NCBI GenBank assembly: GCA_010279815.1
Contig: QEOQ01000141.1
Span: 744,001 to 808,000 of the forward strand
Direction of reading: 5' to 3'
Length of the DNA stretch: 64,000 nt
Source: Brachionus plicatilis
Lineage: Eukaryota > Rotifera > Eurotatoria > Ploima > Brachionidae
In this document: piece after piece, positions 17,421 to 40,497 of the stretch
How the letters are laid out: each line of letters starts with the position of its first letter
Numbering within the stretch: position 1 is the stretch's first letter
Notes under the pieces: model-generated
The model's database searches: none
Told to the model about the DNA's origin: nothing
Seen by the model: the letters and a program-made list of their open reading frames with translations, nothing else
Position numbers and translations under genes: made by a program

Positions 17421-18723
17421 ATGAATGGGAAAGAAGACTCTCTGGCCAAAAAAACCAGTGCTATTATTTTTGCTGTCAGTTTATATTGGTAAAATGAAAT
17501 TGCTTTTTGCCCATTGTTTAATCAATTTAAATAAAATTCTATTCTAAAGGACGGTGTCCATTTCTATGGTATTTGTGAACAAATACCTATTAAGTTCAAC
17601 CAATTTACAAGTAATATTAAAAAAATATTTAAAATCAAACTATAAATTTAATTTAAAGTTCGATGCCCCGTTATTTATAACATGGTTTCAATGTGTGGTC
17701 ACTGTCGCCTTATGCTGGCTCCTTGCACAGTTTGCAAAATACCAGCCGGGTCTAATTAAATTTCCAGCGTTTTCAATAGATCCTAAGATAGCCCGAGAAG
17801 TAAATATAAAATATTCAAAAAATTTATTTAATAATTAAAAAAAAAAAAGATATTGCCATTATCTGTCGTTTTTGTGGGTATGATTACTTTTAATAACTTA
17901 TGCCTAAAATATGTGTCAATATCATTTTACATGGTGGTTCGATCTCTCACTACAGTTTTCAATGTTGTAAGTATTATTTGCTAAATAAAAAAAGAAAGAT
18001 TTATTTTTTTATTCATTTTTGTCTGAATAAAAGATTTTGACTTATATATTTTTTGGAGAGAAAACATCCCATAAAGCATTAGGCTGTTGTGCCATTATAA
18101 TAACGGGATTTTTGATGGGCATTGATCAAGAAAAAGGACTTGGAAGTCTTTCAATTGCAGGCGTTTTTTTTGGTATATCAGCAAGTTTGTTTGTGGCAAT
18201 GAATGCCATTTATACGAAAAAATCTCTAAACTTTGTTGAAAACAATATCTGGAAGCTAACCATGTACAACAATGTAAACGCTTGTGTGATATTCATTCCA
18301 TTTATTTTATTATTTGGCGAACATAATGAAATTTTTGATTTCCCTTTAATTTTTGACTCATTTTTCTGGTTCACAATGATCATCGGAGGAGTGCTAGGCT
18401 TTTCGATGGGATATGTGACTTCATTGCAAATTCAGGCAACTTCTCCATTGACGCACAATGTTAGTGGAACGGCTAAAGCTTATGCTCAAACTTTGCTTGG
18501 TGTATTCTACTTCAATGAAGTCAAAACTTTTCTTTGGTGGATCAGTAATGGATTTGTCCTATTAGGAGCTGCCTTATACTCTCATGTTAGAAACCAGGAG
18601 ATGAAGGAACGCCATAAACAATCTCTAGAAGTTCCTCAAAAAGATTCAGGTATCAATAAAGTTGATAAACAAGATAATCATAGCATTATTTCTGAAAATA
18701 ATCCTTCAGAATTTAAAAATTAG
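17421..18723 (+). CDS. SLC35C1: GDP-fucose transporter (SLC35C1 family)
   Basis: A Golgi nucleotide-sugar antiporter that imports GDP-fucose for protein fucosylation, including that of Notch-type proteins. Five exons (17421-17488, 17550-17610, 17659-17799, 17850-17966, 18034-18723) keep frame and give 358 residues (human 364). Diagnostic blocks are [55 protein letters not shown] and [17 protein letters not shown], spread over about ten predicted membrane segments. The hydrophilic C-terminus faces the cytosol in this family. ATG 17421 gives a short N-tail followed directly by the first membrane helix. Confidence 0.94.
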
Positions 18724-20230: not shown

Positions 20231-22610
20231 TTATATAGTGTTGGCGTATTTTTTTGACAAAGCTTTTAGGGTACTCAAACCAGATTGGAAAGACTCCTTT
20301 TCCTAAAATTAAATAAAAATTTCAGTTTATTTTAAATCAATATCTTTATTCAAAAAATTACTTGGGCAGGTCCGATAGATTGGTTCACTTGACCAAGAAT
20401 GTAGTTAATAGCTTGTTCTCTTTCGACTCGCTTGAAAACTCCTTGAACAGCTACTTGGTAGTCCAAACGTTTTTTGATTTCTTGGTGAACTTGAGCCAAA
20501 CGTTGTCTGAAAGCGGCTTCCAATTGTAAATCGACAGCTTCCTTTTAGAAATAAATGAATAAATTTTAAAAATTGAAAATTTTTTTGTCCCATGACTTAC
20601 TCTTTTGGCGGCATGGATTATTTGGTTAGCTTCTGGTAGAGTTTCTAGAGCTTGGTTAGCTTGGATTTTTTGGTCGATTTCTTTGGTTTGGTTATCTAAA
20701 TCAGCAACTTGGGCCTTGTTTTGTTTGTCAGCCTCAGCATCAAGGTACTCTCCGAGTTGTTTGCCGTACAATTTAGAAATGGCGATGACACTGGTCAAAA
20801 AAACCAATTGTTCGGCGGTGTCGGCCCAGTAGACGAATACTTCTTTTGACAACAAGGTGGTTACGGCTCCCCAGAACAAAATATACGGACCGCATACTCC
20901 AGTTTTGTCGTACATTGCTTTGAACCATTCATCAGGCACCAGTCCAATTCTGATTTTACCTGCATTTTCGGGTACTCTCAACGGTGGAAAATTGACAAAG
21001 TCTCTCTCTGGTGCGTCATGCGGAAAGCGTCTTGCTTCACCGGCAGCGGCAGGTTGAGCAGCATTGGCATTGTTAGAACTTGTAGCTACACATCTAGAAA
21101 AAAGAATGTCTCACCAACACAATTCACAATTTAAAATATTTATTTGCTCAAAAATTAACAAATTTTAAAAAATAAAAAATGATTAAAAAAAAAAAGGATT
21201 TTTTTTTTGTTAAATTAGAATTATTTTTCCCTATTGATCACTTTATAAATTAAATATTTTAAATAATCAATGTCAGAACTTGGCTTAAGTTTATTTAGAA
21301 TATTGACCGCATTTTCGCAGTATTTTTTAGCCAGGAACCTAGTTTCCTTAATGCCATCGCTTTTTAAAACTAAATTGAACGCTTTTAGCACATCGCCTTC
21401 GTTGGCGAACCGTCTCATGATCATGCCGTTGAGCTCGGGATATTTAGCTGACGCGAACAAAACAGGCGCCGTAGCCAGGCCCAGTCTGAGATCAGCACCG
21501 GCGCCAGGCTTACCCAGCTTGTCCGAATGGGAAGTAAAATCGAGCACATCGTCTATTAACTGAAATGCAATGCCAATGTTTTTACCACACTCATAGGCCA
21601 TTTGAACAAGCTCCTCGTCATTTTTTTCTACACATTGGGGACCATTTTTTTCTACCAACAAAATGGCAACTGCCTTGCAAGAGTTGGCAATCAAACTGGC
21701 AGTTTTGCGGTATGTTTTTACCGAGTAGTGCTCAAAGCGTTCAGAGTCATTTTCTTTGGTGCCGAATTGCATTAGTTCGCCTTTGACCAAGTCCTCAAGA
21801 ACAGTGGATAGTGTCTCAACTACTCTGGTGCTGTCGAGTCTGGCCAAAGCCTTGGAAGACACCGCTAGAACAAAATCACCAGCCAAAGTCGCCTTGTGAG
21901 GCCCCCATTTCAAGCTCACACTCGGCTTGCCTCTTCGCAAATCGCTAGCGTCCACTATGTCGTCATGAATTAAGCTAGCCACATGGATCATTTCGGCAAT
22001 GAGGGCGATCTTCCTCTGTGAGTCCATCAGGATGCAGTCTAATTGAATTTTTTGGTGAGGATTTGAATTTAGCATGCAGTGTACATTGAGAGCCCGAGCC
22101 ATGGAACAAATGATCAATGGTCTAATAGACTTGCCACTTCCGTCAAAGTAGTACTCGCATATTTTTCTCAAGTCAGGCTTTGAGGTTGTGAACATGTTAT
22201 TTATGTCTTGGTGCATATTTTTCAAGTCTGTCTGGACGAACTCTGATGCTTTTTTGTCATCTTGTTCTTGGGTAATGTTGGATAAATTTGACGAACTAAA
22301 GTCAACTTTGACCAAATGTGGACCTGGCTTTTTTACAGATTTTGTCAAACTTGATATAATTTCGAATTTTAAAGATGTTTCATATTTAGTTTAAGATTTC
22401 ACTTAAAAATTAAATTTCAAGAATGCAATAGAAAATGCTCGTGAAACAAATTTAAATTTGAAATTTTACCAAGTTGGACAAGATTTAAGTGAAAATGAAA
22501 TTGCAGGATTAAAATTTAATTTTTGAGCGAAAAAATTTGGGAACTAGTTTGAATTACCTGTAAAGAATTGATTGCTTCTTGACCAAGCTACGAGCAACTC
22601 TGGACAGCAT
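20231..22610 (-). CDS. ATP5PB: ATP synthase subunit b, mitochondrial
   Basis: Subunit b is the peripheral stalk of F1Fo-ATP synthase in the inner mitochondrial membrane. Four exons on the minus strand (22558-22610, 20601-21093, 20362-20541, 20231-20302) keep phase and encode 265 residues (human 256). Exon 1 is MLSRVARSLVKKQSILY, a typical presequence that begins like human MLSRV. Exon 2 has KIRIGLVPDEWF, DKTGVCGPYILFWGAVTTLL and LSKEVFVYW; exon 3 has the amphipathic stalk and KRLDYQVAVQGVFKRVEREQ. Intron 1 (21094-22557, about 1.46 kb) is far longer than its neighbours because it contains the whole PDSS1 frame on the same strand. Exon 1 ends in phase 2 (TAC AG), which matters for the PDSS1 entry. 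Confidence 0.92.
21221..22295 (-). CDS. PDSS1: Decaprenyl diphosphate synthase subunit 1, nested in ATP5PB intron 1
   Basis: This trans-prenyltransferase subunit builds the isoprenoid side chain of ubiquinone in mitochondria. The single uninterrupted frame shows both Asp-rich motifs (HDDIVDASDLRRGKPSV and QLIDDVLDF), the entry CEYYFDGSGKSIRPLI, and blocks close to human PDSS1 (KTASLIANSCKAV, LATAPVLFA, MIMRRFANEGDV). No in-frame ATG lies between the upstream stop near 22408 and M at 22216. Two acceptors (GACTTTAG before 22295; ATATCAAG before 22349) would both join ATP5PB exon 1 (22558-22610) in frame, giving about 375 or 393 residues with a mitochondrial leader. I infer a shared leader exon. 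A start at 22216 would still leave the catalytic core intact. The lack of introns suggests retroposed origin. Confidence 0.9.
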
Positions 22611-24577: not shown

Positions 24578-25915
24578 ATGAATCTTAGTTTGGAATGCCA
24601 AGAATGGACAAATACCAACAAAGATGCTCGTTTGATCAAAACAGCCAAAAAATCAAAACAAAACAAAAATCAAGATTTATCTAATACCATTTATCTACTT
24701 CAGATAGCCCCTTCTAGGAGCTCTAACTCAAAATTAGCATGTCTCATGTCCAATCAATTCGTTAACATCTTTGACCAAAGCAGCCTCAAATTGATCCTTA
24801 AATTCAAGACTCTAGAAGAATCCTCAAAAATAGCTACAGAAATAGGATTTTATAGTAAAAATGATGACTTGGTTTTTGGCAGCTCGGACAATGGTAGCTT
24901 GAAATGCTGGGACTTGAGACAAAACCAATCAACAGAAAAACTCCACGAATGCCTCTGCTTTAAAACTGACGAGGAAAGAGAGTTTCTGTCAGCTGACATA
25001 AATCTTTCGGACAATTTCTTTATAGTAGGAACCAACAAGAATGTTGACAATGCCGTAGTTTATATATTTGATGTCCGAATGAGTGGAAGATTTGTTCATA
25101 AACTTTCTGAATCTCACAGCAATGATATAACCCAAGTTAAATTTGATCCAAGTAATGAGTCGAAATTTTGCACTGGCTCACTTGACGGACTGGTTTGCTT
25201 ATACGACCTGGAACAACAGTCAGAAAATATTGTCAAAATTCCTGTGGATAAAAACGACGAAGAGGATGAAACAGATTCGGATGAAGATCCAGACTTAATG
25301 GAGCAAGTGTTCAATGCTGGTTCATCTATTCAAAAAATTGGATACTTGTCCAGCAAGTGTTCTGGCACGGATCAGCTTTACGCAATTACGTACACTAATG
25401 ATTTATTTGTATGGGATTTACAAAGCCATGATGTTGTTCATCAATTTAAAAGCTCAAATATAGGGACTGTGGGTGTTAGTTCTGATGGAGAGCAAGATGA
25501 AGACTATTTTTTTGATTGTTTCTATATGAAACCGGACTTGATGACCATTTGCAAAGGCTATAAAAATGGAAAATTCAAACTTCTAAATTGCAGTGATTAT
25601 ATGGATGAAATTTGTTTTGAAACTGGCGGTGAAGATAGTTCCAAAAGAATGCACCGGGACATAATCAGAAGCTCATATTGGAATGGACAGAATTTTTACA
25701 CAGCAGGGGAAGATGGATTTTTGTTCAAATGGAAGTTGACTGATAAAAATTCGAAACCAATGGACTCGGATGATATTGAAAAAACAATTTCGAACAAAAG
25801 AGATTTAAAAGATGGTAGTGAATCAGAGAACGAAGAAAAAGATGCTCCAAGCAAGAGACCAAATAAAGAAAGAATACGAAAAAGAAATTTTTTTGTCAAA
25901 AAAAGAACAAAATAA
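24578..25915 (+). CDS. WDR89: WD repeat-containing protein 89
   Basis: A predicted seven-bladed beta-propeller scaffold whose cellular role is poorly defined. The single uninterrupted frame of 445 residues (human about 387) carries WD-type blades with family signatures: FGSSDNGSLKCWDLRQ, AVVYIFDVRMSGRF, SHSNDITQVKFDPSN, CTGSLDGLVCLYDLE, NDLFVWDLQSHDV and TAGEDGFLFKWKL. The SHSDDVTQVRFHPSN-like block is the best match to WDR89. An acidic loop (DEEDETDSDEDPD) and a basic C-terminal tail (KRPNKERIRKRNFFVKKRTK) extend it beyond the human length. It is intronless, unlike most neighbours. ATG 24578 is the first methionine of the frame. Confidence 0.85.
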   Translation: MNLSLECQEWTNTNKDARLIKTAKKSKQNKNQDLSNTIYLLQIAPSRSSNSKLACLMSNQFVNIFDQSSLKLILKFKTLEESSKIATEIGFYSKNDDLVFGSSDNGSLKCWDLRQNQSTEKLHECLCFKTDEEREFLSADINLSDNFFIVGTNKNVDNAVVYIFDVRMSGRFVHKLSESHSNDITQVKFDPSNESKFCTGSLDGLVCLYDLEQQSENIVKIPVDKNDEEDETDSDEDPDLMEQVFNAGSSIQKIGYLSSKCSGTDQLYAITYTNDLFVWDLQSHDVVHQFKSSNIGTVGVSSDGEQDEDYFFDCFYMKPDLMTICKGYKNGKFKLLNCSDYMDEICFETGGEDSSKRMHRDIIRSSYWNGQNFYTAGEDGFLFKWKLTDKNSKPMDSDDIEKTISNKRDLKDGSESENEEKDAPSKRPNKERIRKRNFFVKKRTK

Positions 25916-39978: not shown

Positions 39979-40497
39979 TTTTATTCAAATTTCTCTCTTT
40001 CGAGTTCTTTTCTAATATAATTCACAATTTTCAAAATATTTTTATTGTACCTTGCCACTAGTTTTAGATGCAGTTTAAATATGTTAAAAAAATATATGGT
40101 GCATACATATTTGTGCTTTTTTTTGCACTAAAAATTTAAAAAGTGCACTTTTGCAAACTAGTTTTTAATGTCTCATAAAGACAAACTGAAAAAGTATTCT
40201 TTTTTTCTCAAAAGATATAGAACCAAATTTTAGTCTCATTTTTTTAAATAATCTCTGATATTTTTCATATTTTGCATGGCCTTTAAAACAATTTTTATTT
40301 GAGTTAATACAATTCAGATTAGATCATTTTTGGAAAAAATTTCAAAATTTTGCTGACAATAGTTTTTGAAATAATTTTGTTAATAAAATTTTATTCATTC
40401 TCTTTATTTTTTTGACATGTAAATACTTATGCTAAAATATAAATTAATATAAGAATATAGCTTTTAAAGGAATTCAAACTCGATCTATCAGTTGAAA
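39979..40497. promoter_or_regulatory. Compact divergent promoter between RPL37A and VPS45
   Basis: Only 519 bases separate the two start codons. On the minus strand a GAAAAGAACTCGAAAGAGAG tract precedes the RPL37A ATG. No core elements are certain. Confidence 0.35.

Follow-up and report, generated by a model that had tools for sequence, protein, structure and literature searches.

We found that the gene for PDSS1 in Brachionus plicatilis lies inside the first intron of ATP5PB and has no usable AUG of its own. Among the models that we compared, the best explanation, and in our judgment a probable one, is that alternative splicing would give PDSS1 the leader encoded by the first exon of ATP5PB.

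Results

The window, which is the whole stretch of 64,000 nucleotides that was analysed, covers positions 744001-808000 of contig C12 in a 102.9 Mb assembly of 173 contigs. Its G+C content is 0.267, and the values given in PMC11954553 for nine monogonont assemblies range from 24.95 to 31.14%. ATP5PB is encoded on the minus strand. Exon 1 (22558-22610) is 53 nt long, encodes MLSRVARSLVKKQSILY plus AG, and ends in phase 2; the coordinates and phase assigned to it in an earlier, sequence-only reading were correct. It is the proposed shared first exon. GTAATT follows directly on its 3' side, and the donor at 22557 scores 9.4 bits, which beats 115 of 115 reference donors under splice-site models derived from 115 introns outside this locus. 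The acceptor AG of exon 2 (20601-21093) lies at 21095-21094 and scores 8.0 bits (77th percentile). Exon 3 spans 20362-20541, and exon 4, with its stop codon, 20231-20302.

Several observations support the identity of the host gene. Searching the species' own genome returned a Mt_ATP-synt_B domain at this locus in one stretch (43.6 bits), and the relative P0121, which is 91% identical to the spliced ATP5PB of the window, contains the same domain at 82.9 bits. The residues M1, R4, S14, and R18 of exon 1 were invariant across 47 aligned ATP5PB proteins. When the best candidates from a search of the assembly were scored, only the window locus matched the ATP synthase b domain, giving a single ATP5PB locus. 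Upstream of ATP5PB, and divergent from it, an uninterrupted frame of 445 aa (24578-25915, plus strand) contains WD40 repeats; the generic WD40 model was above its cut-off there, and WDR55 and other specific beta-propeller models were below theirs. Another plus-strand frame (18031-18723) is sugar-nucleotide transporter-like (TPT family, 37.7 bits) and presumably resembles SLC35C1. Scanning the window against Rfam returned nothing above gathering scores.

The PDSS1 gene lies within ATP5PB intron 1 on the same (minus) strand as its host. Its frame is intact, intronless, and open from 22390 to the stop at 21221-21223, and the proposed alternative terminal exon would comprise the uninterrupted stretch from 22349 to 21221, including the stop. 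The frame contains the polyprenyl synthetase domain PF00348 (209 bits) and both Asp-rich motifs, DDIVD and DDVLD. Named proteins among the best 120 of 2405 matches were from vertebrates, mostly fish, were 45-54% identical, and were mostly labelled PDSS1, with some labelled hypothetical and one labelled claudin. Neither the PDSS1 nor the ATP5PB matches listed included a named rotifer protein. Because the gene has no introns, it may have arisen by retroposition. A candidate poly(A) signal, AATAAA, is located at 21139-21144 (minus strand), and a G/T-rich stretch comes after it, immediately ahead of the host acceptor. In DNA with so much A and T, a hexamer of this kind is likely to occur by chance, and we claim no significance for it.

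A second full PDSS1 gene elsewhere, raised by the sequence-only reading as something that would count against the shared leader, was looked for in the assembly, and none was found among the best candidates scored. The next match, on contig C1, was 32% identical over 117 residues. A divergent prenyl synthase frame of 276 aa on that contig (L007, G000:C1:3020715-3021053), with in-frame Mets near its start, is probably the PDSS2-type partner subunit, judging from its sequence. Two further prenyl synthases, each matched in pieces (L002/L003 on G000:C123 and L004-L006 on G000:C3), are probably geranylgeranyl and farnesyl diphosphate synthases.

The sequence-only reading had stated that the PDSS1 frame contains no in-frame ATG before 22216, and this was borne out when the ATGs of the intron were checked. 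From 22557 to 22216 there are three, only the last of which is in the PDSS1 frame; those at 22383 and 22260 lie in other frames and reach a stop after 4 and 12 codons, respectively. The ATG at 22216 encodes Met59, and the 54 residues before Asp55 contain no Met. This Asp, four residues before Met59, was kept in 27 of the 27 relatives whose called protein reaches that position, in an alignment of 32 relatives that included 5 beginning after the Asp and left out P0030 and P0033 from the 34 rotifer-like proteins that were read. Similarly, the twelve best PDB alignments of PDSS1 begin at query residue 50-51, and the match to the solanesyl synthase model TIGR02749, with a score below its cut-off, begins at residue 49. 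Judging from these alignments, the PDSS1 protein clearly begins upstream of Met59. Since the protein is conserved before its only in-frame ATG, PDSS1 requires either an upstream exon or initiation at a non-AUG codon. A start at M22216 was set aside because it would cut off conserved residues, and intron retention was rejected because the frame of exon 1, carried on into the intron, ends at a stop immediately beyond the junction codon.

Before the conserved Asp, 8 of the 27 relatives have an internal Met and hence a certain ATG (P0008, P0010, P0013, P0014, P0018, P0019, P0025, and P0029), 16 have only the M of the called start, and 3 have no Met. The called start is the sole Met before the Asp in P0001, P0004, P0015, and P0016, and some gene callers write M for GTG or TTG starts too.

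We then considered which splice acceptors could connect exon 1 to PDSS1. Of the 14 AGs whose exon would start between 22540 and 22216, only those with starts at 22349 and 22295 bring exon 1 into the PDSS1 frame; both joins are open through to the PDSS1 stop, in agreement with the two acceptors singled out from the sequence alone. The preferred acceptor (AG at 22350-22351, minus strand) creates a Ser codon from the AG of exon 1 and the T at 22349, and scores 4.8 bits (26th percentile). The alternative (AG at 22296-22297, minus strand; exon start 22295) is less likely and scores 3.9 bits (16th percentile). Among 23,117 AGs, the score of the acceptor of 22349 is equalled or exceeded by 16.6% and that of 22295 by 24.2%. 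An in-phase AG of such quality is by itself unremarkable; what carries the case is the absence of a start, the order in which the rival models rank, and the linkage of the two genes in other lineages. The minus-strand acceptor at 22401 scores higher (7.9 bits, with 2.2% of AGs as good) but joins exon 1 to a stop, and this AG is possibly a decoy or noise.

P0001, at 85% identity the nearest relative whose N-terminus is extended, has KKPG-HLVKV-FSSSNL in common with the window. The shared residues start 12 codons before the Ser at 22297, and we favour 22349 over 22295 because the latter would drop residues common to P0001. The called start of P0001 aligns with a TTG at window position 22348, which may reflect the caller's choice of the same TTG or the trace of a start of its own. 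In P0004, P0006, P0014-P0016, P0018, P0019, and P0023, a Ser that could be the same split codon occurs where the N-termini change character, a pattern that was picked by eye from the proteins and is not counted as evidence.

To rank first-exon models, we enumerated every ATG-plus-donor exon in 24540-22330 that joins PDSS1 in frame, which yielded 25 ATGs and 108 models. Their scores, relative ones from a home-made model, order the candidates without proving any of them. Exon 1 joined to 22349 ranked first of 108 (37.6), and exon 1 joined to 22295 ranked second (32.1). The best exon from outside ATP5PB was a 17-nt exon at 22674-22658, which ranked third (29.7). A self-trained hidden Markov gene finder (264 kb, 119 introns, 49 genes) joined ATP5PB exon 1 to PDSS1 by the intron 22557 to 22349 in phase 2, unprompted on the junction although its training data included this locus. 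It also recovered ATP5PB introns 2 and 3. It further added an intron from 21338 to 21093, which we take for an artefact of its restriction to a single isoform at each locus. Two simple intron-training procedures were discarded, having yielded no credible site consensus and missed ATP5PB introns 2 and 3.

Over its first 30 residues, the N-terminus that the join would create contains 7 K/R and no D/E, and its first acid is residue 34. A protein starting at M22216 would have 4 K/R and 4 D/E over the same length, and D/E are missing from only 5 of the 281 segments of 30 residues in the PDSS1 body. Helical moment does not separate the start models: the joined N-terminus and the M22216 start both come to 0.53 and one rival to 0.63, where the 95th percentile of the body is 0.44. 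The N-terminus of ATP5PB itself has a helical moment of 0.59, and its charge pattern fits a mitochondrial targeting peptide. The joined N-terminus is presequence-like, and exon 1 may encode a mitochondrial import signal.

Whether the two genes lie together in other lineages was addressed with the best 120 of 2405 PDSS1 matches and the 110 ATP5PB matches listed, comparing 40 of the former with 102 of the latter, all from assembled contigs. Equality of contig size and source, which speaks to linkage and not to nesting, order, or orientation, gave four PDSS1/ATP5PB pairs, at 40067, 9741, 2869, and 2031 bases. In a jittered null, the number of matches above 2500 bases had a mean of 0.015 and a maximum of 2 in 5000 trials, as compared with three observed; over all sizes, three or more matches occurred in 0.0004 of trials. 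The three pairs above 2500 bases involve P0023/P0190, P0024/P0183, and P0080/P0215. We attributed the 2031-base pair (P0059/P0164) to chance, as it matched a fish-like PDSS1 with a rotifer-like ATP5PB. In the three linked lineages PDSS1 is 62%, 54%, and 62% identical to that of the window, and the 2869-base contig has at most ~1.3 kb outside the two called genes. PDSS1 and ATP5PB thus appear to share a contig in three other lineages, and their linkage appears to be old. Four genomic proteins corresponding to ATP5PB exon 2 (P0187, P0190, P0192, and P0195) have, by eye, non-leader residues just before the equivalent of Arg18. Therefore, the position of host intron 1 is probably common to the lineages of these relatives.

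None of the 34 rotifer-like PDSS1 relatives (P0001-P0033 and P0080; read by eye) has an ATP5PB-like leader. A protein search with residues 1-48 across the junction returned 3 candidates, none at E ≤ 10, and was a weak search in that P0121 was not among its candidates even though its ATP5PB leader matches at 16 of 17 residues. Judged by length, many of the relatives' contigs look genomic, where a prokaryotic-style caller would not see a spliced leader. We consider the absence of a fused leader among these relatives to be weak but real negative evidence. The shared leader may be confined to some lineages, because an internal Met precedes the Asp in 8 of 27 relatives and P0026, P0028, and P0029 look as if they have starts of their own. 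Among sources of relatives' DNA, a scan of genome contigs with P0080 kept 80 loci whose titles were bacterial or archaeal, and a scan of viral contigs with P0004 returned no relative.

Discussion

The sequence-only reading had proposed that PDSS1 borrows the leader of ATP5PB. In favour of this proposal are its first rank, the choice made by the gene finder, the conservation of residues that precede the sole in-frame ATG, the one copy of each gene found in the assembly, and the contig linkage in three other lineages; against it, no database protein that was read has the fused N-terminus, and the acceptor of 22349 is of ordinary strength. We infer the splice itself, the use of the poly(A) signal, and import, as parts of the following scheme. 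A single promoter upstream of 22610 would give rise to a pre-mRNA with exon 1 as the common 5' exon. Splicing from 22557 to 21093 would produce ATP5PB, and splicing from 22557 to 22349 with a 3' end near the AATAAA at 21144 would produce PDSS1 from an alternative terminal exon. At its N-terminus the PDSS1 product would then bear the import leader of the ATP synthase subunit, MLSRVARSLVKKQSILY-SLTKSVKKPG... Since the host acceptor is the stronger one, ATP5PB would be favoured, which fits a greater need for the ATP synthase subunit.

PDSS1 could instead be expressed from its own promoter or from a separate small first exon, upstream of or inside ATP5PB, in which case the gene would be nested but the leader would not be shared. 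An example is the exon at 22674-22658 (MHTLIN...) joined to 22349, with a donor of 8.5 bits, and the eight relatives with an in-frame Met before the conserved Asp also point this way. This exon begins 64 nt upstream of the ATP5PB ATG, a distance neither required nor excluded by the mean 5' UTR of B. plicatilis, given as 52 bases (SD 35) in PMC1925144. Yet the model scores lower than the exon 1 join, its 17 nt have nearly no coding signal (0.8), and its N-terminus has 4 K/R and 1 D/E in 30 residues as compared with 7 and 0 for the joined one, making a separate first exon unlikely in our estimation. Translation from a non-AUG codon of PDSS1's own transcript, such as the TTG at 22348, would agree with the called start of P0001 and with a frame conserved from about there. 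However, a prokaryotic-style caller may accept TTG, so the P0001 start need not be real, and the N-terminus of P0001 from the TTG-aligned start has a low helical moment (0.33). Given also that a coding exon in the right phase is available and its donor is excellent, we regard a non-AUG start as highly unlikely.

Less probable again is a trans-spliced leader on the PDSS1 mRNA, as in bdelloid rotifers. The bdelloid spliced leader is not known to contain an ATG, and its sequence had 0 matches in the assembly at up to 3 mismatches. Although bdelloids do have spliced leaders (PMC1925144, citing Pouchkina-Stantcheva and Tunnacliffe 2005), the B. plicatilis EST survey described in PMC1925144 reports no spliced leader, its authors leaving room for a small subset of transcripts. 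The shared first exons of ctenophores, as described in PMC8527503, concern trans-spliced leaders. The least probable of the explanations that we weighed is that the nested PDSS1 is silent and ubiquinone is made otherwise, as no other PDSS1 was found in the assembly, the nested gene is intact and strongly conserved with its relatives, and a second-subunit-like gene is present on C1.

The sharing of the ATP5PB leader by alternative splicing can be compared with several known arrangements. In the ChAT/VAChT cholinergic locus of animals, one gene lies in the first intron of another and the two have a common 5' exon. As would be the case for PDSS1, the 5' exon of that locus is shared by alternative splicing, but there it is non-coding. 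Retrogenes can also capture a host 5' exon, with an intronless coding sequence sitting in the host intron. Unlike in such captures, the function of the ATP5PB host is retained, and mitochondria would be the destination of both products.

The parallel drawn by the sequence-only reading was an accurate one: in rice, maize, and wheat, rps14 resides in an intron of sdh2 (SDHB) and obtains the sdh2 targeting peptide through alternative splicing, as described in PMC1543663. Both cases involve the gene of a mitochondrial protein in a host intron and a host leader acquired by alternative splicing. They differ in that the grass guest came from the mitochondrial genome and its splicing was published as observed, whereas PDSS1 is an intronless nuclear enzyme gene of an animal and its splicing is predicted here. 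According to PMC2568002, CPNE1/RBM12 and more than 20 other human pairs share a promoter and 5' exons, and the sharing by CPNE1/RBM12 is conserved in human, mouse, and zebrafish, with the shared part being 5' UTR. As in those pairs, one promoter and the 5'-most exon sequence would be common to two genes with different coding sequences; in contrast, both proteins would take their start codon and import leader from the exon shared by PDSS1 and ATP5PB. Our searches of the open-access literature turned up neither a coding import leader common to two genes nor an ATP5PB/PDSS1 pair described for animals.

We put at slightly better than even the broader reading that PDSS1 depends on the ATP5PB leader throughout monogononts, that one splice choice divides the output of one promoter, and that the arrangement is an animal counterpart of rps14/sdh2 kept through deep divergence. 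If true, one presequence exon would serve two unrelated mitochondrial proteins in an animal, and the supply of the ubiquinone side chain would be hard-wired to ATP synthase expression. It would also account for a class of annotation failure in which an enzyme seemingly has no N-terminus. Rotifers can be cultured, making the shared leader directly testable, and linkage in several lineages would allow the dependence of the nested gene on its host to be dated.
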